A stretch of DNA of 64,000 nucleotides from assembly GCF_900186585.1 (NCBI RefSeq), contig NZ_FYDD01000002.1, forward strand, positions 186,001 through 250,000, in the 5' to 3' direction. The translations under genes and the position numbers were made by a program. Below, piece after piece: positions 38,053 through 51,970 of this stretch (the stretch's first letter is position 1; every line of letters begins with the position of its first letter). The notes under the pieces were generated by a model that searched no databases, was not told the DNA's origin, and was given only the letters and a program-made list of their open reading frames with translations. Source of the stretch: Massiliimalia timonensis (lineage in GTDB: Bacteria; Bacillota; Clostridia; Oscillospirales; Ruminococcaceae).

Positions 38053-38139
38053 GCTGGTGTGGCGGAACAGGCAGACGCAAGGGACTTAAAATCCCTCGGT
38101 AGCAATACCGTACCGGTTCAAGTCCGGTCACCAGCACCA
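38053..38139 (+). tRNA. tRNA-Leu (anticodon UAA)
   Basis: 87 bases. The acceptor stem GCTGGTG pairs perfectly with CACCAGC, followed by the discriminator A and an encoded CCA. The anticodon stem AGGGA/TCCCT holds the loop CTTAAAA with anticodon TAA, reading UUA and UUG. A long variable arm (TCGGTAGCAATACCG) identifies a class II tRNA. The T-arm contains GTTCAAGTC. A promoter and a terminator flank it, so it is transcribed alone. Confidence 0.97.
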
Positions 38140-38140
38140 T

Positions 38141-38176
38141 GATGGAGTGACGAAAAAAATGTCACTCCATCTTTCT
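38141..38176 (+). terminator. Terminator of tRNA-Leu
   Basis: Stem GATGGAGTGAC / GTCACTCCATC with a 9-base loop and TTTCTT, 2 bases after the CCA end. Confidence 0.9.
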
Positions 38177-38188
38177 TAGTATTCATGC

Positions 38189-38483
38189 GGTTTTTGGGGC
38201 TTTTTAAAGCAAAATCCCAAAAACCATTTTACCGTGGAGGCCTAAAAATAAAACCGAATCAAATAGCGAGAAAGCGGAGCCTCGGGCCTGAAAAATCAGG
38301 CCCGAGGCTCCGCTTTTTTGCGTTTTTACTCTTTTTTCTACTGTCAGAAGTGTAGAAGTTTCCGGCAGTTTCATAGATAGATTGACAGATCTCTTCACAA
38401 AGGAAGGCTTTTAAATCCTCAAATCACATGGGGTCAGTGCGCCCTTTTTTAAACCTCTCTCCGATACGGAGAGAGGTTTTTTG
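38189..38483. other. Non-coding stretch with three further hairpins
   Basis: Three inverted repeats follow one another without a credible gene. GGTTTTTGGG / CCCAAAAACC spans 38189-38225. A perfect 21-base stem with a 4-base loop and T run spans 38271-38318 (core GCGGAGCCTCGGGCC). AAACCTCTCTCCG / CGGAGAGAGGTTT with T run spans 38452-38483. The last two have terminator form on the plus strand although nothing obvious is left to terminate. A lost small gene or RNA, or remnants of mobile DNA, are possible. Confidence 0.6.
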
Positions 38484-38811
38484 CGGCAGAGACCTGCTTT
38501 CCACCTCTCTCAGACGCTCTCCCCTGATATCTTACTAGCTGGGAAGAAGAATATGGGCTTACGCCATATCTTCCTGAAGAATCACTTACAGATCATACCG
38601 CAGGATCTGTATTTTGCTGTGCAAAACCGTGCTTTTTCACACTGTTGTTTAAACATAAGCAATTTTCGACAATCAAACAGAAAGGATGAGGAAACGATTG
38701 AAACATTGTAATCTAAGTACTATTCCAAAAAAAGGCGCACAAAACCAAGCCCCCTAAAAGCAGGCAAAAATGAAGATATGCTTAAGGTCTAAGATGTTAG
38801 TGGAGCAGTCA
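38484..38811. other. Non-coding stretch before the IS110 relic
   Basis: 328 bases in which I recognise no gene, RNA or repeat. A short plus-strand frame around 38560-38711 (text KNHLQIIPQDLYFAVQNRA) has no ribosome binding site or family I know. The stretch may include one outer end of the IS110 relic, which carries no terminal inverted repeats to mark it. Confidence 0.4.
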
Positions 38812-40007
38812 CTAAATAACCTTGCCGTTGTAGAATGAAGATGGCTTCTTCCACGGAAACTTCTCAATGTGCGGGTGGCTGTTCGCCCTTGCGGTGTAAG
38901 GCTCGTTCTTCTTGAGCATGTTATAGATAGCCGTGAGCAGCATTCTGGCGATGGCAATAATGGCTTTCTTGTGTCCTCTGCACTTTTTGAGGGCAAGATA
39001 GCGATTACGTACTTCCGGGAACTGCTTGACACAAATGGCACAAAGAGCGCACTGAACGACAACGGTTTGATGTAGGCACCGGCTCGGCTGATTTTTCTTC
39101 TTCCCGGCACTTTCGTTGTTCTACAACGTAATCCCAGCCCAAGAGCAAAGATGCTTCGAGGTAGGAAACACGGACATATCCACTCCGATTTCAGAGATAA
39201 TGCCGATTGCGGCAAAGGATTGGATGCCCGGAGCCGTCATAACAAGACCCAGTTGGGGGAGGTACTTCTCAGCAACAGACAGAATCAGGGATTCCAGATT
39301 GAGTTTGCACAGTTCAAGGCTGTCCATGTGGGAACAGTTGATGCGAAACTTTTCAGCCTGTTCTTCACACATCACTCCGTCCACAGCGGCAAGCACCTGT
39401 TCATTGGTCGCTTTCATGCCTTTGGTTCGGAAACCAGAAACATCCGTAATTTTCTCCGTTGGATTTTCCAGAATACGGGCAGTGATTGCGGAGGCTGCCT
39501 TGCCGAACACATCTGAGAACACATTATCCAGTTTGAAATTGGAGACCGTCAGACAGTTTTGCGCCCGGTTTTTCTAGCCGATGGCAAAGCTGGTAAGTTT
39601 GCAACGGTAACGAACCAAGTCCCGAAGCTGGCGAATATCCGCAGGAGAGATGAAGCTCCCGGTGACAAGATCATGTTTGAAGATATCAGCAATCCATTTA
39701 GCGTCTCGCTTGTCCGTTTTTTGCCCCGCATAGCTTTCACATACTTAGGGTGAGCGAGAACAATGTTGCAGGTGTGCTCTAGAATGTTGTAGATGGGGAT
39801 CCAATACTTCCCGGTGGATTCCATACACACATCTTTGCAGTTGTTTTCGGCCAGCCAAGCTGCACACCGCCGCAAATCTCCGGTAAAGGTGGAAAACCGC
39901 TTGCTCTTGTAGGTTGTCACTCCCTGCTCACTGGTAGAGGCAATACAGGCTACGACGAAGGACTTGTGGACACATCCCTAGCAGATGCGGTAAACAATTT
40001 TAAGCAT
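38812..40007 (-). pseudogene. IS110-family transposase, multiply broken
   Basis: Conceptual joining of frames on the minus strand gives an IS110-type DEDD transposase. Recognisable text, in order: CAAWLAENNCKDVCMESTGKYW, ILEHTCNIVLAHPKYVKAM, VLAAVDGVMCEEQAEKF and CSWAGITL. The original start is the ATG at 40007 (AAGGAG upstream). Damage includes a stop eight codons in, a one-base loss in an A run near 39715, a stop at about 39575 (usual Glu), a stop at about 39137 (usual Gln), and frameshifts near 39100 and 39060. The first catalytic Asp region (usual GMDVHK) reads GCVHK. The element cannot make a working recombinase. Confidence 0.9.
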
Positions 40008-40312: not shown

Positions 40313-41524
40313 TTATCTGTCAACTGGTTTTCTAGTGATCCATTTTCCGTCCGTAAAATCAGGGAAAGCTACGGGCTGGCTGCCTAGGGCGATGGATTGT
40401 TCCGACAGCAAAGAAATAACTGACCAAGAAGCCATGTCATATACGTCGATTGGCATCGATTTTTTGTTTTTTAAGGCGTCAATAAAATCTTGGAAGACTA
40501 GCCAATCCATTCCGCCGTGTCCGCCTTTTACCCCGTCGTTTAAAAAAGAATTCCATAACGGATGTTCATATTCCTTACGGTATTGTTCTATGTTTTGATA
40601 TTGTTCGTGCCACTTCCACTCAAATTCTGTATGGACTCCGTCTATAAACAGCGAACGGTTGTCTTCCATGAACATGGCTTTGGTACCCTTTACAATAAGC
40701 CCCCTGGAATAAGCGCCGGGAAGCGTAGTATCAAGGGTGATGGTGATAGTTTCCCCATTGGCGCATCGAATTACGGTAGTAACCACATCTCCCTGAGCGA
40801 AATAAGCGTTTCGCAATGCCTGATCCTCAGCTTTGTGTTCTAATATATATTGGTGCAGACCCGCTGATTTTGACGAGGTGGAAGTAAGCGAAACCATAGC
40901 GTTGCCACGATTGATATCAAGAAGCCGTGCGATCGGGCCGATTTCATGGGTGGGGTAATTTTCGCAGTTGCGGTGCAGGTAGTTATCCAAGCGGTAATGC
41001 CTGTTTTCACGGCCAAATGAAACTTCGTTTCTCAGGTCATGGTGGTATCCGCCTGCACAGTGTACGATCTCGCCGAACACTCCTTTTTTCCGCATATTCA
41101 TCAGCATCATCTCATCTCTGCCATAGCAGCAGTTTTCCATAAACATGCAGGGGGTTTTGGTATTTTCATAGGTGCGCACAAGCTTCCATATTTCATTTAG
41201 TGAAAAAGCTCCGCCTACATCACAGGCGACCGGAACTCCCGCTTCCAAAGCGGCGGCGGCAATTTCAAAGTGTGTTTGCCAGGAAGTAGCGATATATACC
41301 GCCTCTAAATCCTGAATCTTTAAAAGTTCCCTATAATCCGCAAAACCTAAAGGCAGATTGTGGTTGTGCTCTTTCGTCATAGCAATGGCGTCGTTTATCC
41401 TATCTTCGTATACATCACAAACCGCGATCACTTCTACGTCTTCCATTGGCAGCAGAACGTCTTTTAAAATCATTGTTCCACGAGCGCCTAGCCCGATAAC
41501 GCCCATTTTAATGCTGTTTTTCAT
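40313..41524 (-). CDS. Gfo/Idh/MocA-fold protein, GH109-like glycosidase
   Basis: 403 residues. An N-terminal NAD-binding Rossmann domain has GVIGLGARG at residues 9-17. The usual Lys of the dehydrogenase EKP motif is absent (VPVACDVGGAFSL instead). Text FMENCCYGRDEMMLMNMRKK, then NYPTHEIGPIARLLDINRGN, closely resembles GH109 alpha-N-acetylgalactosaminidases. These use tightly bound NAD for an oxidation-elimination-reduction mechanism without net redox. GH109-like action on GalNAc or a related sugar is therefore my first reading; a plain oxidoreductase is the alternative. GGAGG lies upstream of the ATG. It is the last gene of the minus-strand glycan operon, 169 bases after the cyclase gene. 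Confidence 0.85.
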   Translation of the reverse strand: MKNSIKMGVIGLGARGTMILKDVLLPMEDVEVIAVCDVYEDRINDAIAMTKEHNHNLPLGFADYRELLKIQDLEAVYIATSWQTHFEIAAAALEAGVPVACDVGGAFSLNEIWKLVRTYENTKTPCMFMENCCYGRDEMMLMNMRKKGVFGEIVHCAGGYHHDLRNEVSFGRENRHYRLDNYLHRNCENYPTHEIGPIARLLDINRGNAMVSLTSTSSKSAGLHQYILEHKAEDQALRNAYFAQGDVVTTVIRCANGETITITLDTTLPGAYSRGLIVKGTKAMFMEDNRSLFIDGVHTEFEWKWHEQYQNIEQYRKEYEHPLWNSFLNDGVKGGHGGMDWLVFQDFIDALKNKKSMPIDVYDMASWSVISLLSEQSIALGSQPVAFPDFTDGKWITRKPVDR

Positions 41525-41693
41525 AAAATTGACCTCCGCATTCTTATAATTGCAATCATCCCTTGGAAATCAAAACGCAGGTTATCAACCGCCTTGAAGG
41601 GAAAGGGAAATTAACAGAACCACCGCCTCTGTTGATGGTTGTCTTATAACAGTAATTTTTTCTGAATCAGATGAATGAAAAGGGAAGGATTTG

Positions 41694-42356
41694 TCATTCC
41701 TCCGCCGTTAACACGGCTCTGGCGGGGGCACAGCAGGTATCCGTGAGGTTTGGCGTCAAAACAGTCAGCCGTCCTCCGCTTATTGGGGCGTCTTTCAGGT
41801 TTACCAGAGGAGCCAAAAGAAGGCTGTTGTGTTTGGAGAATATTTCAAACACATCCTCCTCGGCGGGTCCCTGCCACGCCGGAATATCCGATCCTATGAT
41901 TTTTGGCTCCCATGATAACAACCATTGGATGGCCGATCTGGTTAAATAGGGGGAATCGTCAAGAAAATCGCCGGAATCCCAGTTTTCCCAGCCGCAGCTG
42001 AAAAGAATCGCGGAATTTGGCGCAAAATCAGCTCCGCCTGCCGCTTGCTTTAGATCGGCGGCAGAAATGGGGGAGTTTGGACGTCCAAACCGCAATGGGT
42101 CAAGATGGATAACATAACAGGGGATATCGACAAGCTCCTTGATGTCAATATCTTGCAATAATGGATTGCCCTCATATCCATTAAAATGTGCGGTGGTTTC
42201 AAGATATGTGCCTGTGTGGGAACTAAATCCATCAAACACATCGCAGAAATAAGTATTTTTCGCAACTTGGATCCGTCTGGGATGAAACTCTGGATAAACA
42301 TCCCCATAAAGCCAAATCCCTTTCTTTATTTTTCCGCTTAAATCAATTACTCTCAT
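41694..42356 (-). CDS. Cyclase-family (kynurenine formamidase-like) metal hydrolase
   Basis: 220 residues from the ATG at 42356, with AAAAGGAAA upstream; the frame opens 20 codons earlier inside the preceding gene. The fold is that of PF04199 proteins, which hydrolyse amide bonds using a metal site formed by HxGTHxDxPxH. Here the motif reads HTGTYLETTAH, so the second His is Tyr and the Asp is Glu; metal binding may differ. The C-terminal part has GSDIPAWQGPAEEDVFEIF. In this operon it might act on an N-acyl or lactam group of the sugar, but that is a guess from position. It follows the DUF1961 gene by 20 bases. Confidence 0.78.
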   Translation of the reverse strand: MRVIDLSGKIKKGIWLYGDVYPEFHPRRIQVAKNTYFCDVFDGFSSHTGTYLETTAHFNGYEGNPLLQDIDIKELVDIPCYVIHLDPLRFGRPNSPISAADLKQAAGGADFAPNSAILFSCGWENWDSGDFLDDSPYLTRSAIQWLLSWEPKIIGSDIPAWQGPAEEDVFEIFSKHNSLLLAPLVNLKDAPISGGRLTVLTPNLTDTCCAPARAVLTAEE

Positions 42357-42376
42357 AGCAGTATTTTCCTTTTCAG

Positions 42377-43012
42377 CTAAAATTCTACGGTGTATTCCAT
42401 TACAACCGGTTTCCACGAGATCTGCCTTAATTTGAAGTTCCTGTACTGGATAAAGCTGGCATAGGTGCCGAATCCTACACGGTTAAAGCGATTGGAATCA
42501 ATTGGGTCTGGGTCTGACGCTTCAATCACCAATTTTCCGTCTACAAAGATGAAGCACAAGCCATCAATACTGCCTGCCTGGATATGATAAGTCTGCCCAG
42601 GCACCAAAGTAAAAAGGGTGGTTGTAGAACGCATTTTGCATTCAGGGTAATGTTCAATTCCCGCTTTCTTTTCCCACCAGCCGTTTAGTCCAGCAATGTA
42701 ACCGATCCCGGCGTCGTTTGCATGATAATCCCAGCCTTCGGAACACCAGGTGAAATTCAAATCATTATCACAGGGAGGGACGGTTCTTGCCTCAAAATCA
42801 AGCAGGACATTTCCGGGATACCCTTTTTTAGAGTAAAGCAATCCCCCTGAATTGCCACGGTGACGTCCGGTAAGCCAGCCGTCCTCGACCCACCATTCTC
42901 CTGTGGAGTGCTCCAAATCCCAGTTTTCGCTTAAGGACGGATTTGAAAAATCATCTTCCAGCAGGATCGGACTGGCTGCTAAATCGATCTCCTTTTCCAT
43001 AACTTTCAACAT
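42377..43012 (-). CDS. DUF1961-type concanavalin-like protein (YesU-like)
   Basis: 211 residues, no signal peptide, predicted all-beta. Text DDFSNPSLSENWDLEHSTGE and EDGWLTGRH at the start and GKLVIEASDPDPID near the end matches the YesU/DUF1961 family, a jelly-roll fold seen in rhamnogalacturonan clusters of Bacillus. It is related to the DUF1080 fold that includes 3-keto-glycoside hydrolases or lyases. Its activity is not established. AAAGGAG lies 7 bases before the ATG. It sits 46 bases after the GH20 gene and before the cyclase gene, pointing to intracellular processing of the imported sugar. Confidence 0.75.
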   Translation of the reverse strand: MLKVMEKEIDLAASPILLEDDFSNPSLSENWDLEHSTGEWWVEDGWLTGRHRGNSGGLLYSKKGYPGNVLLDFEARTVPPCDNDLNFTWCSEGWDYHANDAGIGYIAGLNGWWEKKAGIEHYPECKMRSTTTLFTLVPGQTYHIQAGSIDGLCFIFVDGKLVIEASDPDPIDSNRFNRVGFGTYASFIQYRNFKLRQISWKPVVMEYTVEF

Positions 43013-43058
43013 AAAAATACTCCTTTGTTCTCATATCATCTGCGTAGGAAGATTGTTG

Positions 43059-44942
43059 TTAAGCGCGGGGGGCAATCCTGCTGGCGGAAACAATATCACC
43101 GTAGCAGTTATTATAAATGCCCTCTTCGCTGCTTCCGCTGTAAGGAAGCCGTTCCTGTTCCAACTCTTCTATTTTGTCGATCGTCCCGTTTAGGTAATCA
43201 GAAAGGGTCTCCTTTGCTGATGTGATCCGTGCTAAAAGGGCGCCGTAACGCATATCAATAATATCGAAACCGATTGGCTTACAGGTGGACATCCACAATG
43301 CCCGGTGCAGTTTTCTGAGGTTTACCACCTTTGTGAAAAGTTCAGGAAGTGTAGCTTCCTTTAATTGTTCCAGCAAAGCAGTGTTTTTTTCCAGATATGC
43401 CCGAGTGAGTTTTAAACCGAGTTCTGATTTTATGGAAAGCACATCAGCAACGGAAGCGTTAAACTGGAAAAGCTGGTTGAATCTTCCGTTTCTTGCGGAG
43501 GCATTGCCCATCTCCCGCGCCAGTTTTTTATAATGCGAATCCAACGGGAGCCCTTCGATGTTTTTATCATAAAGGCCGGTCAGCAGATCCTGCCACATCA
43601 GGATTTTAGAAGTGTTGTATTCATCAGGATTGTTTTCCTTACAATTCGGCACTTCGTCAAAATATTTCAAGTTGACAAAATCATCAAAATTTCCGCCGGT
43701 ACAAAAATGAAACCGCTGTTTGACTTCCTTCATATCGACTTTTTCCCGATACCCGTGTTCTGCAAAAAGCGAAAGCCCCGCCATGGTAGCCAATGGGTTG
43801 CATTCAGTCCCATTATCGCCCCAAATGGTTGCAAAAACCTGTTTGATCCCCATCTTTTTGGCTGCGCTTAAGCCTAAATTGGTGGTTGTAATGGTTTTTC
43901 CATAATTGGCGCCAAAACTTGACCATGACCAGACTCCGCCTGCGAAAATAGTTTCGCCAAGCAGTTTATGCCTTTGCAGCATCGTTTCATAATAGTCCTG
44001 TGTTTCATGGTAATAATCCCAGTAGATCACCTGCATATCTTTTGGAACGCTTTGGATGACTTCTTCTGTGATCACATTGGAAAGGTCATAATAATCTTTT
44101 CCGGCCGTGCGGAAAAACATATCTCCCCACATCATAGGTTTCAACCCAAGTTTCCGCACGATTTCCATGACTTTTAACAAGTGTTCTTTCATGATCTTGT
44201 ATGGAGGGACTATGCCATGCTTTTCAAGATAAGTTCCCAGCCCCAGCCGCCATGCTTCATCCATCCCGATATGGATCCTTTTTGTTTGAAAGGGCGCTGA
44301 TGCAGATTTTAAGATATCCCTGATAAAGGCGTAGGTTTTTTCTTCTCCTACAAGCAGTGTGGAACTGTCTTCCTTAATATCCCGAAAACATTCCCATCTT
44401 AAGGTATCGGTCAGATGCGCTAATGTTTGCACACAGGGGATCATTTCGATCCCAAACAAGCTTGCGTAGGTGTCCAGTTCTTTTAATTCCTCTTGACTGT
44501 ATTTGGAACGCATATAACCAAAATAGGGCTGATTCTTAACTTCAAAGCTGTCTTCGCAGTAAACCATCAGCATATTAAGCCCCATGACAGCCATACTTCT
44601 AATGATGCTTTTCAACGTTTCTACTGTGATGACGGCGTTTCCTTGGGAAACGTCGAACATAGCGCCGTTCATGGAAAACTGCGGGGTTTCTGAATATTCA
44701 AAATCCTGCTCTCCGTTTTCCAAATGTTCCAGCAGCAGCCCAAAGCCCCGGAAAAAATGAATGTTTTCTTTATAAACGATCGTTGCGGAATCGGAATGGA
44801 AAGAAACCGCAAGTTCAGAGGAATCACGCTGTATTACAGTGACTGGGATCCCATCTTTTGAGATGGAAAAACGATACGTTTCCTGCAATTCTTTTAACGC
44901 TGGTAAAAATTGATTTGCAAAAGTAAAATGAAACTGCTTCAT
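43059..44942 (-). CDS. Glycoside hydrolase family 20 beta-N-acetylhexosaminidase
   Basis: 627 residues without a signal peptide, so cytoplasmic, the same size as the GcnA-type enzymes of streptococci. An N-terminal domain (about 1-85) precedes a TIM barrel. The catalytic Asp-Glu pair is in RIHIGMDEAWRLG near residue 229. Other landmarks are EYSETPQFSMNGAMFDVS at the barrel entry and YWDYYHETQDYY and GGVWSWSSFGAN around the substrate tryptophan. GH20 enzymes remove terminal beta-linked GlcNAc or GalNAc by substrate-assisted catalysis. It would trim oligosaccharides brought in by the permeases upstream. Confidence 0.92.
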   Translation of the reverse strand: MKQFHFTFANQFLPALKELQETYRFSISKDGIPVTVIQRDSSELAVSFHSDSATIVYKENIHFFRGFGLLLEHLENGEQDFEYSETPQFSMNGAMFDVSQGNAVITVETLKSIIRSMAVMGLNMLMVYCEDSFEVKNQPYFGYMRSKYSQEELKELDTYASLFGIEMIPCVQTLAHLTDTLRWECFRDIKEDSSTLLVGEEKTYAFIRDILKSASAPFQTKRIHIGMDEAWRLGLGTYLEKHGIVPPYKIMKEHLLKVMEIVRKLGLKPMMWGDMFFRTAGKDYYDLSNVITEEVIQSVPKDMQVIYWDYYHETQDYYETMLQRHKLLGETIFAGGVWSWSSFGANYGKTITTTNLGLSAAKKMGIKQVFATIWGDNGTECNPLATMAGLSLFAEHGYREKVDMKEVKQRFHFCTGGNFDDFVNLKYFDEVPNCKENNPDEYNTSKILMWQDLLTGLYDKNIEGLPLDSHYKKLAREMGNASARNGRFNQLFQFNASVADVLSIKSELGLKLTRAYLEKNTALLEQLKEATLPELFTKVVNLRKLHRALWMSTCKPIGFDIIDMRYGALLARITSAKETLSDYLNGTIDKIEELEQERLPYSGSSEEGIYNNCYGDIVSASRIAPRA

Positions 44943-44966
44943 ATTAAAAATTCACTCCCATTTCTT

Positions 44967-46070
44967 TTAAAATGCCCCCTTTTGGAAGATTACATCTTCC
45001 ACCTTGGCAGGCGAATACCCATGGTCAACAGCCCACTGGCAGGCTTTAAACACCTTTTCACGATATTCGGGCTGATAGAGGCAATAATGCTCATAAAAAT
45101 ATTCTTCGTGGATCAGCAGATTTAAAAACGACTGCTGTTTATGATTTTCGATAGAACGGAGATCTAAATAACCATCGATATCCTCTAATTTTACAGAATC
45201 CAGCACAATATCGTCTTTTAAAAAGATAATATCTTCTTTGGTATCGATCCAAAAATCCCGTTCCGCCGCATGCTCTGTTTGTTCGGGGTTCAAATAATAG
45301 GAAACATCGGGATTTCCGTTTTCATCAAAGATGAAATATGCCTGTAAAACCTGATATCCCAAGTCGCGGAATCCCTTAGTAGCTTCTAAGTTGGAATCAG
45401 CCCAATGCTCTGCGGTGGCGCGGCACATGACCTCTTTCCCTGCAAATCTGAGGATCTCGTTGTTCACAAGGGTGCCGTCTTTGATAACCTGGTCATAAGT
45501 AGCATGCCGGTAGGGTCTGTCAGGCTCATTTTTAAAAGCATGGAATGTGAGCTGCAACCAGTCAGAATTATCAATAAATTCCTGCTTATATATATCCGGG
45601 AACATGGAAAGATTAAAGCTGTTATCATCATTTTGATAATAAACGTGCATCTGGACATGATTGTGATATTGATGATGTAGTTCTTGGAACAGCTTGAAAA
45701 ACGGGTTTTCAAAAATGGAATGGTATTTGTTTTTATAAATGTCTTCCAAACACCAGATTACGTCGTCTACGCAGATCCGATATGTTTTATATCCATTTTT
45801 CAGCCAAAGCACCTGAATGGTTTCGGTATAGCCTGTATTTTCGTCAAGCAGTTGAATTTTGTTTTGATAGGAATTCAGAAATATTTCTGCAGTAAAGATT
45901 CCGTGATCTTCTTTTGCCGGCACCCCATTGATTTTGATATTGCTTAAATTTGGAGCCTGAACAGTAACTTTGGTGAAAAGCTTATTATCAATTACTTTCC
46001 CATCTGCAATACTAAATAAAACATCCCCATCGACCGGGAATATAAATTGAAAGTCAGTTTTTTCTAACAT
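44967..46070 (-). CDS. Divergent polysaccharide deacetylase-like protein
   Basis: 367 residues, no signal peptide. The first 90 residues look like a beta-sandwich. The rest carries what may be a NodB-type active site: RICVDDVIW near residue 101 (Asp-Asp), QLTFHAF near 183 (His), and LLIHEEYFYEH near 318 (His). The overall match to known deacetylases is weak, and other residues of the classical motifs are not obvious. Removal of acetyl groups from an N-acetylated sugar would suit the operon. AAGGAG precedes the ATG. It lies between the permease genes and the GH20 gene. I do not recognise a named family. Confidence 0.6.
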   Translation of the reverse strand: MLEKTDFQFIFPVDGDVLFSIADGKVIDNKLFTKVTVQAPNLSNIKINGVPAKEDHGIFTAEIFLNSYQNKIQLLDENTGYTETIQVLWLKNGYKTYRICVDDVIWCLEDIYKNKYHSIFENPFFKLFQELHHQYHNHVQMHVYYQNDDNSFNLSMFPDIYKQEFIDNSDWLQLTFHAFKNEPDRPYRHATYDQVIKDGTLVNNEILRFAGKEVMCRATAEHWADSNLEATKGFRDLGYQVLQAYFIFDENGNPDVSYYLNPEQTEHAAERDFWIDTKEDIIFLKDDIVLDSVKLEDIDGYLDLRSIENHKQQSFLNLLIHEEYFYEHYCLYQPEYREKVFKACQWAVDHGYSPAKVEDVIFQKGAF

Positions 46071-46140
46071 ATAAACAGCTCCTTATGTAGTAAAATGGAC
46101 AGAATTTATATTTTTATATTTCTTTACATTTTAGCAGGCT

Positions 46141-46953
46141 TTATCCTTTGATTCCGCTGAGCGCGATCCCTTCCACAAACTGCTTCTGCAAGAAGATGTA
46201 CAAAGTAAACGGGACGATAAACGTTAATGTGGCACCGGCCATGACTAACCCGTAATTCGTTAGGTATAGCCCCTGTAAAGTAGACAGTCCCAATGTCAGC
46301 GTTGTCATGTCGTCTGTACTAACAACTACCAAAGGCCAGATAAAGTCGTTCCATACAGTGATAAAGGTAAACGTCGTGAGAGAAATGATGACCGGCTTTA
46401 CCAAGGGGATCACGATGCTGAAGAAAGTTCTTATTTCGCCGGAGCCGTCAATTTTAGCGGCTTCAATCAACTCATTGGGGATCCCTTCCATAAACTGTTT
46501 CATCATAAATACGCCAAACGCACCTACGTTAGGTAAAATTAACGAAGCATAGCTGTTAAGCAATCCCAGCTTATTAAACATTGTAAATACCGGGATAATC
46601 GTCACCTGACCGGGGATCATCATGGTAGCTAAAAATAGCGAGAACAGAAGATCTTTGCCTTTAAAGCGTTTTTTGGCAAAACCGTAGCCGGCCAGGGCGC
46701 TGACCGCAATATTCAGCGCGCAGGAACAAATCACAATGATCATACTGTTTTTAAAATATGTCAAAAAAGGCATATTGGTAAAAACAGCCCGGTAGTTATC
46801 AAAGTTAAAATCGCTTAACTGAAAATTGAAGTCCGTCAGGGAATAAACCTGCCTGAATGAGGTAAACAGCATATAGATAAAGGGAATGATCGCGGTGAAC
46901 GTCATGATTATAAAAAGCAGGTTGATAAAAAGTTTCGATATTCTTTGCTTCAT
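46141..46953 (-). CDS. Carbohydrate ABC transporter permease, MalG/LacG type
   Basis: 270 residues, six membrane segments. The EAA loop is ELIEAAKIDGSGEIRTFFSI near residue 160. AGGAGGGAC lies before the ATG. It is the second permease of the glycan importer, 33 bases after the first. The permeases open the minus-strand operon, while the solute-binding protein is across the regulator on the plus strand. No ATPase gene is present, so a shared MsmX-like ATPase is expected. Confidence 0.94.
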   Translation of the reverse strand: MKQRISKLFINLLFIIMTFTAIIPFIYMLFTSFRQVYSLTDFNFQLSDFNFDNYRAVFTNMPFLTYFKNSMIIVICSCALNIAVSALAGYGFAKKRFKGKDLLFSLFLATMMIPGQVTIIPVFTMFNKLGLLNSYASLILPNVGAFGVFMMKQFMEGIPNELIEAAKIDGSGEIRTFFSIVIPLVKPVIISLTTFTFITVWNDFIWPLVVVSTDDMTTLTLGLSTLQGLYLTNYGLVMAGATLTFIVPFTLYIFLQKQFVEGIALSGIKG

Positions 46954-46986
46954 AATTAGTCCCTCCTGTCATCGGAATAGTAGTTG

Positions 46987-47865
46987 TTATATGTCGTCTT
47001 TTGGATTTAAGAATTTTCGCTGGATAAACGAAACAATCAAAATAATGACAAATAGCAACATGGCGGCCGCACAAGCATAGCCCATTCTGTATTCACGGAA
47101 CGCCGCGTTATAAATCGTAGAAACCAGCGTTACTGTGGAAGTGCCGGGTCCGCCGCCTGTCATGGCGTATACAAGGTCAAATACCTGGAACGACCAAATG
47201 GTTCCCAGCGTGATGACAAGATAGGTGATTGGTTTGAGCATCGGCAGGGTAATGTGCAAAAACTGCTGAATGCCGCTGGCTCCGTCTACACGGGCGACTT
47301 CGTAAAGGTCGCGCGGGATATCCATAAGGGCGGCTATGTATATTACCATAAAATACCCAACGTTTTTCCAGATAGATACGACGCAGACGCTGAGCAGGGC
47401 GAGATCCTTGGATCCCAGCCAGTTAGGGGTGGGAAGATTGAAGATACTTAAAAACTGGTTTAACAACCCCACTTCCGGATTGTAGATAATACGCCACAAA
47501 GTACCGACCAAGATCATAGAGGAAATGACCGGGATAAACAAGGCGCTTTTTACAAAACCGTTCCACCAATTCTGCTTTTGAGCGGCGATTAGGGCGGCGA
47601 TCAGCATAGACAGAAATGTTTGCAGCGGAACGACGATGATCGTGAAAACCAGCGTGTTTTTTAAAGCGGCTTTGATATATGGGTCATCGACCATCCTGAC
47701 GTAGTTTTCAACGCCAATAAATTCCATGGACTGCACAAGATTGTATTTGTGGAAGCTGTAGACACAGCATACAATAATGGGAATTAAGGCGAATACCAGG
47801 ATAAAAATAGTTGCAGGCAAAACATAAAGATATCCTGACAGATCTGATTTTGGTTTTGATTTCAT
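46987..47865 (-). CDS. Sugar ABC transporter permease, MalF/LacF type
   Basis: 292 residues, six membrane segments beginning near residue 12. The EAA loop is DLYEVARVDGASGIQQFLHI near residue 187. It is the first gene of the seven-gene minus-strand glycan operon, whose promoter is probably at 47976-48005, and the partner of the permease at 46141-46953. The closest groups take up N-acetylglucosamine, lactose or oligosaccharides, so the substrate is better read from the hydrolases downstream than from this gene. Confidence 0.94.
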   Translation of the reverse strand: MKSKPKSDLSGYLYVLPATIFILVFALIPIIVCCVYSFHKYNLVQSMEFIGVENYVRMVDDPYIKAALKNTLVFTIIVVPLQTFLSMLIAALIAAQKQNWWNGFVKSALFIPVISSMILVGTLWRIIYNPEVGLLNQFLSIFNLPTPNWLGSKDLALLSVCVVSIWKNVGYFMVIYIAALMDIPRDLYEVARVDGASGIQQFLHITLPMLKPITYLVITLGTIWSFQVFDLVYAMTGGGPGTSTVTLVSTIYNAAFREYRMGYACAAAMLLFVIILIVSFIQRKFLNPKDDI

Positions 47866-47975
47866 TTGGAATACCCCTTTCTATTTGTTTTAGGCGTTTT
47901 TAAGAAAACACAGCCGCTCAACAGCTTTTTGGGAAAGAAAGCCGCCAGCGGCGGATGTTTTCTTTTGTTAAAATC

Positions 47976-48005
47976 ATTGTAATATGGTTTGCCCTGCCAA
48001 GTAAA
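47976..48005 (-). promoter_or_regulatory. Probable promoter of the minus-strand glycan operon
   Basis: On the minus strand TTTACT (48005-48000), 18 bases, TACAAT (47981-47976), 110 bases before the first permease. It lies in the 308-base divergent region 47866-48173, which holds no gene. Confidence 0.5.
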
Positions 48006-48093
48006 TAATCCATTTTTTATTGGTTAACAGATCAGGCGGATATGGCGGGTTTGCAATTAACCAAATTTGATTCGCTGATCATTATGTGCTCAT

Positions 48094-48123
48094 TTGACAA
48101 AAATAGCATTTATTTGGTATTAT
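48094..48123 (+). promoter_or_regulatory. Promoter of the AraC/YesN-type regulator
   Basis: TTGACA (48094-48099), 18 bases, TATTAT (48118-48123), 50 bases before the regulator start. Confidence 0.7.
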
Positions 48124-48173
48124 ATTTAGTGTAAATATCAAATCAGCGCTTCGGTAAGAAAGGTTCTAAGAAA

Positions 48174-50408
48174 ATGAAATGGAAGAAAAAATTGTTTTCA
48201 AAATTTATCAATCCTTATATTTTTATGGTGCTGATCACCGTGGCTTTAGCTGGCGTTGCTGGCTATGCCACTAAAAAGATTTTGACCAATGATATGATCC
48301 AAAAGCACGCCACAATGGTGGATTTTGTAAACAGTTATGTGGATAACCATATTTTAGAAATCGAACAACTAGCTTACGAGTTGGATTTTTCCAAACAGAT
48401 CCCTCTTTCGGATTCTTTGAATATAAAAGACGATGTCCTTTTGGCGAATCAACTCAGTGTGATCCAGTCCTCTTCAGGGATCATTCAGACAATAGGAGTT
48501 TACTACCCGGACTCCGACCGGGTGATCAGCGACAGCGGACCGTTTACCGTCCGGTGTTTTTACCGGCTTTACCATCAGGATAATGCGGATTATTATGCGT
48601 CGTATTTAGAACAGCTTGCGGAACAACCCGTTTCTACCTTTAAAATATTCACCGATACAGGACGTCTGGACGGACATATAAATGATGTTTATTACTACTA
48701 TACGCTTAAAAATTCAAGCGCTTTGGAAAAAATGCCGGTAATCATTATCAAAATAGATATGAAGAAGATCAATAATTTAATTGGCGAACTGATCTCGAAC
48801 ACCTCGGAATGCTTCGCGATCTTAAATGAAGAGGTGGGCGTCATTACGATTACCGGCAATGAAGAACTTTTAGAGCATGTGGATTTGACGAAGATAGACG
48901 ATCAGAATGATATCACGGCGAAGGTTGTGGGAGATCATGTCGTTTATTATGGATCTTCGGCTTATCAGGATATCAATTATTTATCCATTACGCAGCAAAA
49001 CGGATTGATGAGCGCGCTCTTTACCTCTTATAAGGTCATGTTTGCCGGCGTGGCGCTGGTGTTTTTAATAGACCTTATTATTTCTGTCTATTCTTCCAAA
49101 AAATACCGGAAATCATTCTCCCGGATCGTGGGAATGATGCAGGAAAATCCTGAAAAATCCGTGATCTCTGACAACCCATTTTCTTATATCGAATCGAATA
49201 TCCAATCCATGATTGATAAAAACGAAACGCTCAGCAATCAATTGAACCGGCAGGAAACAGAACTGTGCAATACCTTTTTGGCAGAGGCGTTAAAGGGCGA
49301 TATTCAAGAAGAAGCGGTTTTCGCCGCAAATATCCAAAAATATAAACTGGATTTCGCCGGGGATTATTTTGGCGTATTGATTTTTGATTCCTTAGATAAA
49401 AGTTTGATTTATGAAAATATCGAGGAGTTTCGAAGCCGGTTAGAATATGCCGCGAAAAAGTGCTCCAATACATATTGTCAGGCAACGCTGTGCGTGCTGG
49501 ACGATTTCTATTGCATGATAATCAGCCAGACAGAGGAAGAGATGCAACATTGCCGCGCTTTTATAACAGAACTTTCTTCCTGCCTGATTCAGGAATTTCA
49601 GGCAGGGCTACAAATTGGCTGCGGAAATGTTTACAAGGGATACGCCCAGATCCCCATTTCTTACAGCGAAGCAAAAAGCAGTTTAAAATATTTAGCGAAC
49701 AGCGAACGGTCTGGAATGCTTGTTTACGCGGATCTTCCCAAAGAATTCCTGTATAAAAAAAGCGATTCGCTTGACCTGCTTGCAAAAGTGGTAAATTGTA
49801 TTAAATTGCAGGATTACGAAAATTGTATCGAGGTGATCCCAGCCCTGTTTTCTTGTATTGATGAAGAAGGGAACGAGGAAGCTGCCAAAGCGACGCTGTT
49901 TATCGCTTTTATGATGTTGGAAGAAGCATCCGTTTCCTTTGAACGAATGAACTATCATTATTATTACCGCTGTTTGGCCAGCGGTGCCGCAGATAATGGC
50001 AAGCTGCAGAAGGCTGTTCTGGAACTGCTGGAAGAATTAAAAAGCATGAAGCAGGAGAAAATTTTGATCAATTTTGATAAGAAGATCGTAATGATCAAAA
50101 ATTATATTGATGAAAACTTCTGCGACCCGAATATTGGTCTGAATCTATTGTCAGAGCACTTTTCTATGAATAACAGCTACCTTTCCAAGGTGTTCAAAAA
50201 GAGTTTTGGGGTCGGAGTGCTGGAATACATCAACAAATTGCGTATTGAAAAGTCGAAACAAATGCTGATCGACACCAACCTTTCTTTGCTGCAAATTTCC
50301 GAATCCATTGGGTATATCAGTGATATTACGTTCATTCGGATTTTTAAACGCTATGAGGGCACAACGCCGGGAAAATTCAGGGAGGCAATGTCGCCAAATG
50401 ATAGCTGA
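48174..50408 (+). CDS. Membrane-anchored AraC/YesN-type regulator of the glycan locus
   Basis: 744 residues. Membrane segments at about 14-34 and 285-305 frame an extracellular sensor domain. A cytoplasmic middle region precedes the C-terminal AraC-type DNA-binding domain (about 640-740), seen in GLNLLSEHFSMNNSYLSKVF and SIGYISDITFIRIFKRYEGT. It has the same design as the regulator at 2141-4471 but is clearly a different protein. It lies between the divergent permease operon and the solute-binding gene, so it probably switches both on in response to the external glycan. AGAAAGG precedes the ATG. Confidence 0.92.
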   Translation: MKWKKKLFSKFINPYIFMVLITVALAGVAGYATKKILTNDMIQKHATMVDFVNSYVDNHILEIEQLAYELDFSKQIPLSDSLNIKDDVLLANQLSVIQSSSGIIQTIGVYYPDSDRVISDSGPFTVRCFYRLYHQDNADYYASYLEQLAEQPVSTFKIFTDTGRLDGHINDVYYYYTLKNSSALEKMPVIIIKIDMKKINNLIGELISNTSECFAILNEEVGVITITGNEELLEHVDLTKIDDQNDITAKVVGDHVVYYGSSAYQDINYLSITQQNGLMSALFTSYKVMFAGVALVFLIDLIISVYSSKKYRKSFSRIVGMMQENPEKSVISDNPFSYIESNIQSMIDKNETLSNQLNRQETELCNTFLAEALKGDIQEEAVFAANIQKYKLDFAGDYFGVLIFDSLDKSLIYENIEEFRSRLEYAAKKCSNTYCQATLCVLDDFYCMIISQTEEEMQHCRAFITELSSCLIQEFQAGLQIGCGNVYKGYAQIPISYSEAKSSLKYLANSERSGMLVYADLPKEFLYKKSDSLDLLAKVVNCIKLQDYENCIEVIPALFSCIDEEGNEEAAKATLFIAFMMLEEASVSFERMNYHYYYRCLASGAADNGKLQKAVLELLEELKSMKQEKILINFDKKIVMIKNYIDENFCDPNIGLNLLSEHFSMNNSYLSKVFKKSFGVGVLEYINKLRIEKSKQMLIDTNLSLLQISESIGYISDITFIRIFKRYEGTTPGKFREAMSPNDS

Positions 50409-50486
50409 ATCAAATTTTGTTAAGGGAAAAAACCGCTAAAAAGCTGCTTTTACTATAAAAACGGTTAGGGTATAAAAAAAGGTTTG

Positions 50487-50515
50487 TTTACGAAAATGTA
50501 AATAGTAGCTATAAT
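50487..50515 (+). promoter_or_regulatory. Promoter of the solute-binding protein gene with overlapping palindrome
   Basis: TTTACG (50487-50492), 17 bases, TATAAT (50510-50515). A palindrome TTTAC-GAAAAT-GTAAA (50487-50502) covers the -35 box and may be the binding site of the regulator just upstream. The leader to the ATG at 50569 is about 47 bases. Confidence 0.65.
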
Positions 50516-50568
50516 TTTATTATAAAGTTTGATTTATTTATCAAAAACAAACAAAGGAGTGTGCTACT

Positions 50569-51870
50569 ATGAAAAAACATTTGAAAACTATTTTTTGTTT
50601 GCTACTAACCGGTGCAATGATGTGCAGTATGGCGGCTTGCGGAAAAGGACAGACTGGCGGAAATGAAAGCGGCCAGTCTAAAGAAGAAAACACCATCAAA
50701 GACGTTCGTGTATGGCTGCCTCCATATGGTACGGAAGATTCTTTGGATAAAGCTGTGTGGCAGAAAACCTTTGATGAATTCACAGAGGAAACCGGCGGGA
50801 AAGTTGAATGCCAGATAATTGGCTGGGAAGCATACCCGGATAAGTACCTTTCCGGTGTAAACTCTGGAAACGGCCCGGATTTAGGGTATATGTATGCGGA
50901 TATGGTGCTGGAATTCATCAACACAAATGGAATCGAGGATGTTGGCCCTTACTTAACAGACGCCGACCGGGACAACTTCCTTTACTTAGAGCAGGGATTT
51001 ATTCAGGGTAAGCAATACGGTCTTCCGATCATTGTAGGAAACCCAAGGGTTATTTTGTATAACAAAACCCTGTTGGAAGAAGCGGGTGTGCAGCCGCCAA
51101 AAACGCGGGATGAGTTTGTAGAAGCCTGCAAGAAGCTGACGATCGACAAAGACGGCGATGGCGAGATCGACCAGTGGGGCTACGCCCAGGGCTGGGGGGA
51201 CAAAGCTTACGGCTGTATGCAGGAAATTTTCACCCCGTTTTTACTGTCTGCCGGGGGACAGCTTTTCTCTGACGACGGTACAAAGGCTGATTTTGGAAAT
51301 GAAGCAGGGGTAGAAACAGCCCAGTTCCTTTGGGATCTTGTATATACGCATAAAGTTATGCCCGAAAACTGCACCGGTATGACTGGTCCCGATGTCGGCG
51401 ATATGTTTAAGGCTTCCAAAGTAGCGTTTGTTTCTTCGGCAACCAGCAGCGCTTCCACAATCGATACGGTAGACTGGGGTTACATCCTTGGTCTGGAGGT
51501 GAATGGACAGGAAGCGAAAACCATGATGGTTGCGGACTACCTGGTATTGATGTCCGCGGCAAGAAACAAAGAACTGACCGTTGAACTGATGCGCAAAATG
51601 CTCAGCGGCGAAAGCATGGAAAGATTCCATACCGAACTGACTCCTTTCCCGCCGGTTGCAAAAGATGAAGAATATCACGATAACCCTGTATTCCAGGATC
51701 TGTACGAAAACCATTCTCATCAGTTGATCGCTGAAAAGCCAGTAAAAAATTCCTTTAAGATCAACGATTATCTTTATAAAAATATGCAGATGGTCATGAT
51801 GAATGAATTATCTCCAGAAGAAGGGATTAAAGGTGCGGCCGACTTTGCCAACGAATTGCTGGCTGAATAG
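50569..51870 (+). CDS. Sugar ABC transporter solute-binding lipoprotein
   Basis: 433 residues. A lipoprotein signal peptide ends at the lipobox MAAC with the lipidated cysteine at residue 24, followed by a Gly/Ser-rich linker. The body is a family 1 extracellular solute-binding protein. An EF-hand-like loop DKDGDGEID near residue 195 probably binds calcium, common in sugar-binding members. It captures the glycan and hands it to the permeases at 46141-47865. AAAGGAG precedes the ATG. A strong terminator follows. Placing the binding protein apart from its permeases, across the regulator, allows it to be expressed more strongly. Confidence 0.94.
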   Translation: MKKHLKTIFCLLLTGAMMCSMAACGKGQTGGNESGQSKEENTIKDVRVWLPPYGTEDSLDKAVWQKTFDEFTEETGGKVECQIIGWEAYPDKYLSGVNSGNGPDLGYMYADMVLEFINTNGIEDVGPYLTDADRDNFLYLEQGFIQGKQYGLPIIVGNPRVILYNKTLLEEAGVQPPKTRDEFVEACKKLTIDKDGDGEIDQWGYAQGWGDKAYGCMQEIFTPFLLSAGGQLFSDDGTKADFGNEAGVETAQFLWDLVYTHKVMPENCTGMTGPDVGDMFKASKVAFVSSATSSASTIDTVDWGYILGLEVNGQEAKTMMVADYLVLMSAARNKELTVELMRKMLSGESMERFHTELTPFPPVAKDEEYHDNPVFQDLYENHSHQLIAEKPVKNSFKINDYLYKNMQMVMMNELSPEEGIKGAADFANELLAE

Positions 51871-51924: not shown

Positions 51925-51970
51925 AAAAAGGCAGGGATGCGGCGTTTCAATGCCGCATCCCTGCCTTTTT
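51925..51970 (+). terminator. Terminator of the solute-binding protein gene
   Basis: Perfect 19-base stem (core GGCAGGGATGCGGC / GCCGCATCCCTGCC) with an 8-base loop and T run. Confidence 0.95.

Follow-up and report, generated by a model that had tools for sequence, protein, structure and literature searches.

In a 64,000-nucleotide stretch of the Massiliimalia timonensis genome (the window), seven minus-strand genes diverge from two plus-strand genes between positions 40313 and 51870. They encode two permeases, a GH109 and a GH20 glycosidase and three less familiar proteins. The most interesting item is the unnamed family of one of the three, a CE4-like protein, together with the recurrence of its genes beside GH109 and GH20. 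Breakdown of N-acetylhexosamines (HexNAc) in Clostridia has mostly been described via NagA and phosphotransferase system routes, and this widespread family is a candidate for a missing step in the use of N-acetylgalactosamine (GalNAc) and N-acetylglucosamine (GlcNAc). The locus may well be an inducible operon for uptake and cytoplasmic breakdown of a short HexNAc-containing oligosaccharide or glycoconjugate fragment, in which the CE4-like protein would act on a product derived from HexNAc; we hold this reading with middling confidence.

The CE4-like family and its GH109 and GH20 partners

The CE4-like protein comprises an N-terminal beta-sandwich (residues ~8-90) followed by a NodB-like domain (~95-365). 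It matched no Pfam family at E<=1 and no NCBIfam family, and its 57 relatives matched none except a Glucodextran_B-like domain (13/57) and stray single hits. PF01522, the profile of CE4/NodB deacetylases, found neither the window protein nor the 57 relatives. An AlphaFold2 model (pLDDT 95.5, pTM 0.92) was compared with known structures by Foldseek. Among its top matches were insect chitin deacetylase (5ZNT/5ZNS; probability 1.00, TM-score 0.46-0.47) and the chito-oligosaccharide deacetylase Vibrio COD (probability up to 1.00), the deacetylase matches overall having TM-scores of 0.33-0.47; other folds were also listed, with poor superposition. The invariant or near-invariant residues D102, D103, H177, R208, H222, D276, H321 and E322 stand in the order of the CE4 motifs. 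The NodB-like fold is thus present in the model, the PF01522 match and the Asp-His-His triad are absent, and the protein was not placed in family CE4 itself. It probably works as CE4 enzymes do.

Searching genome contigs with the single protein returned nothing; an alignment query recovered relatives in at least four phyla, Bacillota, Bacteroidota, Acidobacteriota and Planctomycetota. At 25 of the 39 Bacteroidota loci a GH109 gene lies 7-127 bp from the CE4-like gene on the same strand, and GH20 occurs in the examined stretch at 27 of the 39. Such adjacency has negligible probability under a rough null that assumes 20 copies of GH109 per 7-Mb genome, though the loci of related species are not independent. 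Besides the window, the sole locus outside Bacteroidota with GH109 in range was L104. A Pfam tally of the neighbours gave no dominant function for the CE4-like loci of Bacillota. One locus (L099:3-3733) carries the CE4-like gene in four tandem copies, one of them partial.

Phylogenetic trees placed the window GH109 in a Bacillota clade separated from the Bacteroidota GH109s at 100/100 support; the window CE4-like protein likewise fell among those of Bacillota (100/99). The Bacteroidota GH20s are made up of GH20b plus a catalytic domain, unlike the window GH20C. Because the GH109 and GH20 of the two groups belong to different clades, the trio of GH109, GH20 and CE4-like genes was assembled at least twice. 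That the parts function jointly is best argued from these independent assemblies.

Both glycosidases have retained their catalytic residues. The GH109 matched alpha-N-acetylgalactosaminidase 2IXA (E=1.3e-85 over residues 5-399) and GH109 6T2B (E=3.6e-70), with domain matches to Glyco_hydro_109_C (PF21252, 1.2e-57) and the Rossmann domain PF01408 (7.6e-13). It retains YPTH (190-193) and GHGGMD, and its His193 aligns with His228 of 2IXA; the equivalent His225 of the Spirosoma linguale GH109 is essential (PMC6521355). By its sequence, the window protein is assigned as a genuine GH109 member with the catalytic His retained. A Bacteroides GH109 cleaves alpha-GalNAc of Tn, Forssman and blood-group-A structures (PMC11992087). 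The GH20 matched PDB 2EPK (E=2.5e-104) and 5A69 (E=3e-98), PF00728 (1e-10) and Glyco_H_20C_C (PF18088, 1e-61), and has the catalytic D228-E229 within GMDEAW, which assigns it to the intracellular GH20C/GcnA type. A simple hydropathy scan gave no hydrophobic or signal-like N-terminus in any of the five enzyme-like proteins, so a cytoplasmic location is plausible for all five. The earlier note had proposed an intracellular operon oriented to N-acetylhexosamines, and these results bear it out.

We also considered whether the S. linguale GH109 of PMC6521355 is the one adjacent to a CE4-like gene. This was rejected, as the C-terminus encoded by the reverse primer differs from the CE4-adjacent Spirosoma proteins.

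Many Bacteroidota clusters (L093:1503-12475, L088, L074 and others) contain GH20, creatininase, RidA, 3HCDH, enolase-family, EamA, DHDPS, SDR, CE4-like and GH109 genes, and by gene content such a cluster resembles a non-phosphorylative pathway for amino sugars or their acids. A broader proposal can be built on this, which we regard as doubtful. The CE4-like family would be cytoplasmic deacylases of HexNAc or oxidised HexNAc, defining an unrecorded branch of amino-sugar catabolism. GH109 and GH20, secreted or acting on imported substrate, would release HexNAc, which would be deacylated without prior phosphorylation. In Bacteroidota, dehydrogenases, an enolase-family dehydratase, RidA and a DHDPS-type aldolase would finish a non-phosphorylative route, and the two accessory proteins described below would be new clostridial steps.

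Two putative accessory proteins with atypical family relationships

The ConA-like beta-sandwich protein had been named DUF1961 in the earlier note. The name was rejected on sequence: PF09224 (DUF1961) matched no protein of the genome (E<=10), and a Bacillus subtilis control did match. Instead the protein weakly matched PF06439 (3-keto-disaccharide hydrolase; E=3e-5, 24.4 bits, under the gathering cut-off of 26.8), a profile matched by all nine family members, i.e. the window protein and eight relatives (best 1.7e-7). Its AlphaFold2 model (pLDDT 91) is a ConA-like sandwich, for which Foldseek gave the best E-value to CBM66 (2.7e-8) and the best TM-score to YesU 1OQ1 (0.71, full-length), which we take to be the DUF1961 protein of B. 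subtilis. The 3-keto-2-hydroxy-glucal hydratases 8V31/8TDA (E 2.6e-6 to 4e-6) and the 3-keto-glycoside eliminase 9FBE were also matched. Sequence and model together mark the protein as a putative divergent relative of the PF06439 family with a fold close to YesU. The DUF1961 label reflected a real structural likeness although the name fails by sequence, and only the resemblance of fold remains of it.

The cyclase-like protein matched PF04199 (5e-15, 56.3 bits, the cut-off being 23.1). It was aligned with nine clade relatives from other Clostridia (34-39% identity) and six canonical members. Its motif HTGTYLETTAH replaces the canonical HxGTHxDxPxH, a downstream His is replaced by Phe, and the Glu of IEN by Pro. 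The clade has [Q/H]TGTYLETxAH where ordinary relatives have HTGTHxDxPAH, with Gln as the first residue in the nine relatives. The altered metal motif noticed earlier is thus real, and the protein belongs to a Clostridia clade that has replaced nearly all of the canonical metal site. Since the replacement residues are themselves conserved in the clade, a different, perhaps metal-free, function is suggested. A non-canonical active site kept throughout a clade suggests an activity to which current annotation would give the wrong name.

The altered-cyclase relatives L166, L168, L169 and L170 adjoin AAC(3)-like (aminoglycoside 3-N-acetyltransferase-like) genes, with a third gene, short and conserved, alongside, and one relative (L164) adjoins GH38. 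None adjoined GH109 or GH20 within the stretches read.

Alternative accounts give these two proteins other roles. One account, possible and clearly the less probable, is that the beta-sandwich protein is a cytoplasmic YesU-like sugar binder and that the cyclase relative either binds a ligand or is a non-metallo enzyme, in an ordinary HexNAc operon where the CE4-like protein removes O-acetyl groups before GH20 and GH109 act. YesU gave the best full-length TM-score and binds glycans (PMC6120924), which we count for this account. Removal of an O-acetyl group would not block GH20. Against it, the CE4-like gene pairs with HexNAc enzymes and not with esterase substrates in particular; CE4-fold enzymes act on N- and O-acetyl groups alike, so sequence does not separate N- from O-deacetylation.

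A multi-enzyme redox-elimination route in place of simple hydrolysis is unlikely. Here the GH109-fold protein would mainly oxidise C3 of a glycoside, the beta-sandwich protein would be a 3-keto-glycoside hydrolase or hydratase, and the altered cyclase and the CE4-like protein would process the 3-keto or glycal product. The relationship to PF06439 and the fold matches to 8V31/8TDA and 9FBE fit such a pathway, and PF06439 proteins are paired with 3-dehydrogenases elsewhere (PMC9007349). One run in another Clostridia genome (L161:5527-10336) likewise places a PF06439-like relative beside a generic Gfo/Idh/MocA oxidoreductase and a short CE4-like relative, with a DegT aminotransferase and creatininase-like genes in the same run. 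However, the window oxidoreductase is a GH109 proper, with the residues and the strong match to 2IXA described above; GH109 runs the whole redox cycle alone, and the operon has no separate 3-dehydrogenase. ConA-like folds also resemble many unrelated lectins and carbohydrate-binding modules, and the best E-value was to a binding module.

Proposed working, conservation and origin of the operon

The seven minus-strand and two divergent plus-strand open reading frames, described in the earlier note, were confirmed, and Pfam agreed for the GH109, the cyclase, the GH20, both permeases, the AraC-type regulator and the binding protein (Table 1). The minus-strand genes run from 47865 to 40313 in the order permease, permease, CE4-like, GH20, beta-sandwich, cyclase-like and GH109, with intergenic gaps of 33, 70, 24, 46, 20 and 169 bp if the cyclase-like gene starts at the ATG at 42356. 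Permease 1 matched the NCBIfam UgpA-like model at 2e-37, under the equivalog cut-off. The regulator has two transmembrane segments (7-26 and 278-296), an extracytoplasmic domain, a GGDEF_2-like domain and an AraC helix-turn-helix. The top-scoring promoter-like site of the region (48094-48123, 11/12) lies ahead of the regulator gene, and a strong terminator-like hairpin with a T-rich tract (51925-51970) lies 3' of the binding-protein gene. Rfam found no riboswitch in 36-56 kb of the window.

Table 1. Genes of the divergent locus, listed from the first gene of the minus-strand run, with the two plus-strand genes last.
Feature	Coordinates	Strand	Evidence
ABC transporter permease 1 (CUT1/UgpA-like), first gene of the operon	46987..47865	-	Pfam BPD_transp_1 1.9e-12
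ABC transporter permease 2 (CUT1/UgpE-like)	46141..46953	-	BPD_transp_1 4e-20
CE4-like 'deacetylase-like' protein, 367 aa, unnamed family	44967..46070	-	AlphaFold2 model and Foldseek, conserved residues
GH20C beta-N-acetylhexosaminidase, GcnA type, predicted intracellular	43059..44942	-	PDB 2EPK/5A69 matches, Glyco_H_20C_C
ConA-like beta-sandwich protein, 211 aa, putative divergent PF06439/DUF1080 relative, fold near YesU	42377..43012	-	PF06439, Foldseek
Cyclase-superfamily (PF04199) protein, metal site replaced	41694..42356	-	PF04199 5e-15, alignment
GH109 glycoside hydrolase, NAD-dependent, Gfo/Idh/MocA fold	40313..41524	-	2IXA, 6T2B, Glyco_hydro_109_C
Membrane AraC-type sensor-regulator, 744 aa	48174..50408	+	HTH_18 1e-17, GGDEF_2 3e-6
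Solute-binding lipoprotein of ABC importer	50569..51870	+	SBP_bac_8 2e-29, lipobox MAAC

In the proposed operon, the membrane regulator would sense an extracellular glycan and switch on the divergent genes. The lipoprotein and the two permeases would import the glycan, powered by a shared ATPase whose gene lies elsewhere. Inside the cell, GH20C would take beta-linked GlcNAc or GalNAc off the non-reducing end, and GH109 would take off alpha-linked GalNAc via its NAD redox cycle. The CE4-like protein would then strip an acyl group, most likely acetyl, from the freed HexNAc or from a HexNAc-bearing remnant. GH20 catalysis requires the 2-acetamido group of the substrate, and the CE4-like step would therefore come after GH20, or fall on another residue or on an O-acetyl group. 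The products would feed amino-sugar metabolism through the chromosomal NagA and NagB, both of which were found in the genome above cut-offs. The PF06439-like protein and the altered cyclase would be accessory, their likeliest roles being the handling of an unusual product or sugar binding. Elsewhere in the genome, nagA and a class II aldolase gene of the tagatose/fructose-bisphosphate type are divergent and ~0.7 kb apart (G000:C2:569613-572153), possibly a GalNAc catabolic locus.

Several results weigh against this reading. A PF01522 search of the genome finds four true CE4s and the CE4-like protein is not among them; its family also aligns weakly to these four by hhalign (probability 31%) and lacks the second His of the HxxxH metal motif, with the DD (102-103) and His177 retained. 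Because of the absent His and the weak alignment, fold and motif order do not establish deacetylase chemistry; the invariant His222 might stand in for the absent metal ligand. Sequence does not fix GH109 specificity either, and the alpha-GalNAcase role is a prediction. No GalNAc-specific AgaS was found above cut-off in the genome. Among the loci examined, the CE4-like gene had neighbours other than GH109 or GH20 at every Paenibacillus locus and at almost every Clostridia locus, and the sugars on which the family acts may therefore vary. Nowhere else in the sample were all five enzymes clustered.

In favour of the reading, CE4-like genes co-occurred at the genome level, without linkage, with GH109 (11 genomes against 3.7 expected, P=2e-4) and GH20C (10 against 2.8, P=1e-4) in the sample of ~390 Clostridia genomes (361 for GH20C). 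They also co-occurred with PF06439-like (4 against 0.39, P=2e-4) and altered-cyclase genes (4 against 0.51, P=8e-4), all P values being uncorrected for shared saccharolytic lifestyle and phylogeny. GH109 showed no significant co-occurrence with the PF06439-like (P=0.34) or the cyclase family (P=0.18). One genome (G071) has all five families, on different contigs.

The nearest relatives of the PF06439-like, cyclase, GH109 and GH20C genes had neighbourhoods without a shared cluster, except at L161 and L057. Close relatives of the window genes are mostly scattered and solitary, as are the GH20C relatives 47-54% identical in other Clostridia. At L057:7984-9567 a GH20C C-terminal stretch (46% identity to that of the window) stands immediately before a CE4-like gene and behind a response-regulator gene, possibly a remnant of a GH20C/CE4-like pairing or an assembly joint. 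Judged by conservation of the set, the criterion of the earlier note, the complete five-enzyme set failed, but the core of GH109, GH20 and CE4-like genes survived. Overall, the earlier interpretation is partly supported.

Directly upstream of the locus lie a tRNA-Leu gene (38053-38139) and a transposase of the IS110 family, broken into Transposase_20 and DEDD fragments (~39.1-39.9 kb), so horizontal acquisition is likely, and 38053-39920 is likely an island boundary. A chance collection of genes brought in near the tRNA-Leu, with no joint pathway, would fit this boundary, the absence of the CE4-like gene from every genome searched in the same genus (3) and the same family (33) and the mostly solitary relatives elsewhere, but is very unlikely given six co-oriented genes spaced 20-70 bp apart plus GH109, a dedicated importer and regulator, and the independent recurrence of the linkage in Bacteroidota.

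Comparison with known systems

The B. thetaiotaomicron polysaccharide utilization locus BT4240-50, for mucin core GalNAc (PMC11992087), likewise has a GH109 alpha-GalNAcase and a transporter in a HexNAc locus, but it relies on SusC/D, GH2, an M60-like protease and a GalNAc kinase, and the main text of that paper contains neither the term GH20 nor the term deacetylase. The streptococcal GcnA/GH20C hexosaminidases (2EPK, 5A69) share with the window enzyme the GH20C architecture, the catalytic Asp-Glu and the lack of a signal peptide, whereas the window enzyme shares its operon with GH109 and with accessory proteins of no named family.

The CE4-like protein resembles the CE4/NodB deacetylases (PF01522) in its predicted fold and at most positions of the motifs (DD, first His, Arg, Asp and late His), and it differs from them in the missing PF01522 match and second HxxxH His, the extra N-terminal beta-sandwich and its predicted cytoplasmic location. 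The beta-sandwich protein resembles 3-keto-disaccharide hydrolases (PF06439/DUF1080) and YesU in fold and, weakly, PF06439 in sequence, but stays under the PF06439 cut-off and has no DUF1961 sequence match. The cyclase-like protein shares the Pfam match and the conserved GT, AH, D and PxR positions with the cyclases and kynurenine formamidase (PF04199), from which it differs in the metal-ligand positions, replaced throughout its own clade.

The closest likeness to the trio is found in the clusters of Dyadobacter, Spirosoma and Runella (Bacteroidota), where the CE4-like gene also stands beside GH109 with GH20 nearby. Unlike the window enzymes, their GH109 carries a twin-arginine-like signal and their GH20 a signal-like N-terminus, and creatininase, RidA, enolase, DHDPS, SDR, 3HCDH and EamA proteins are added to the cluster.

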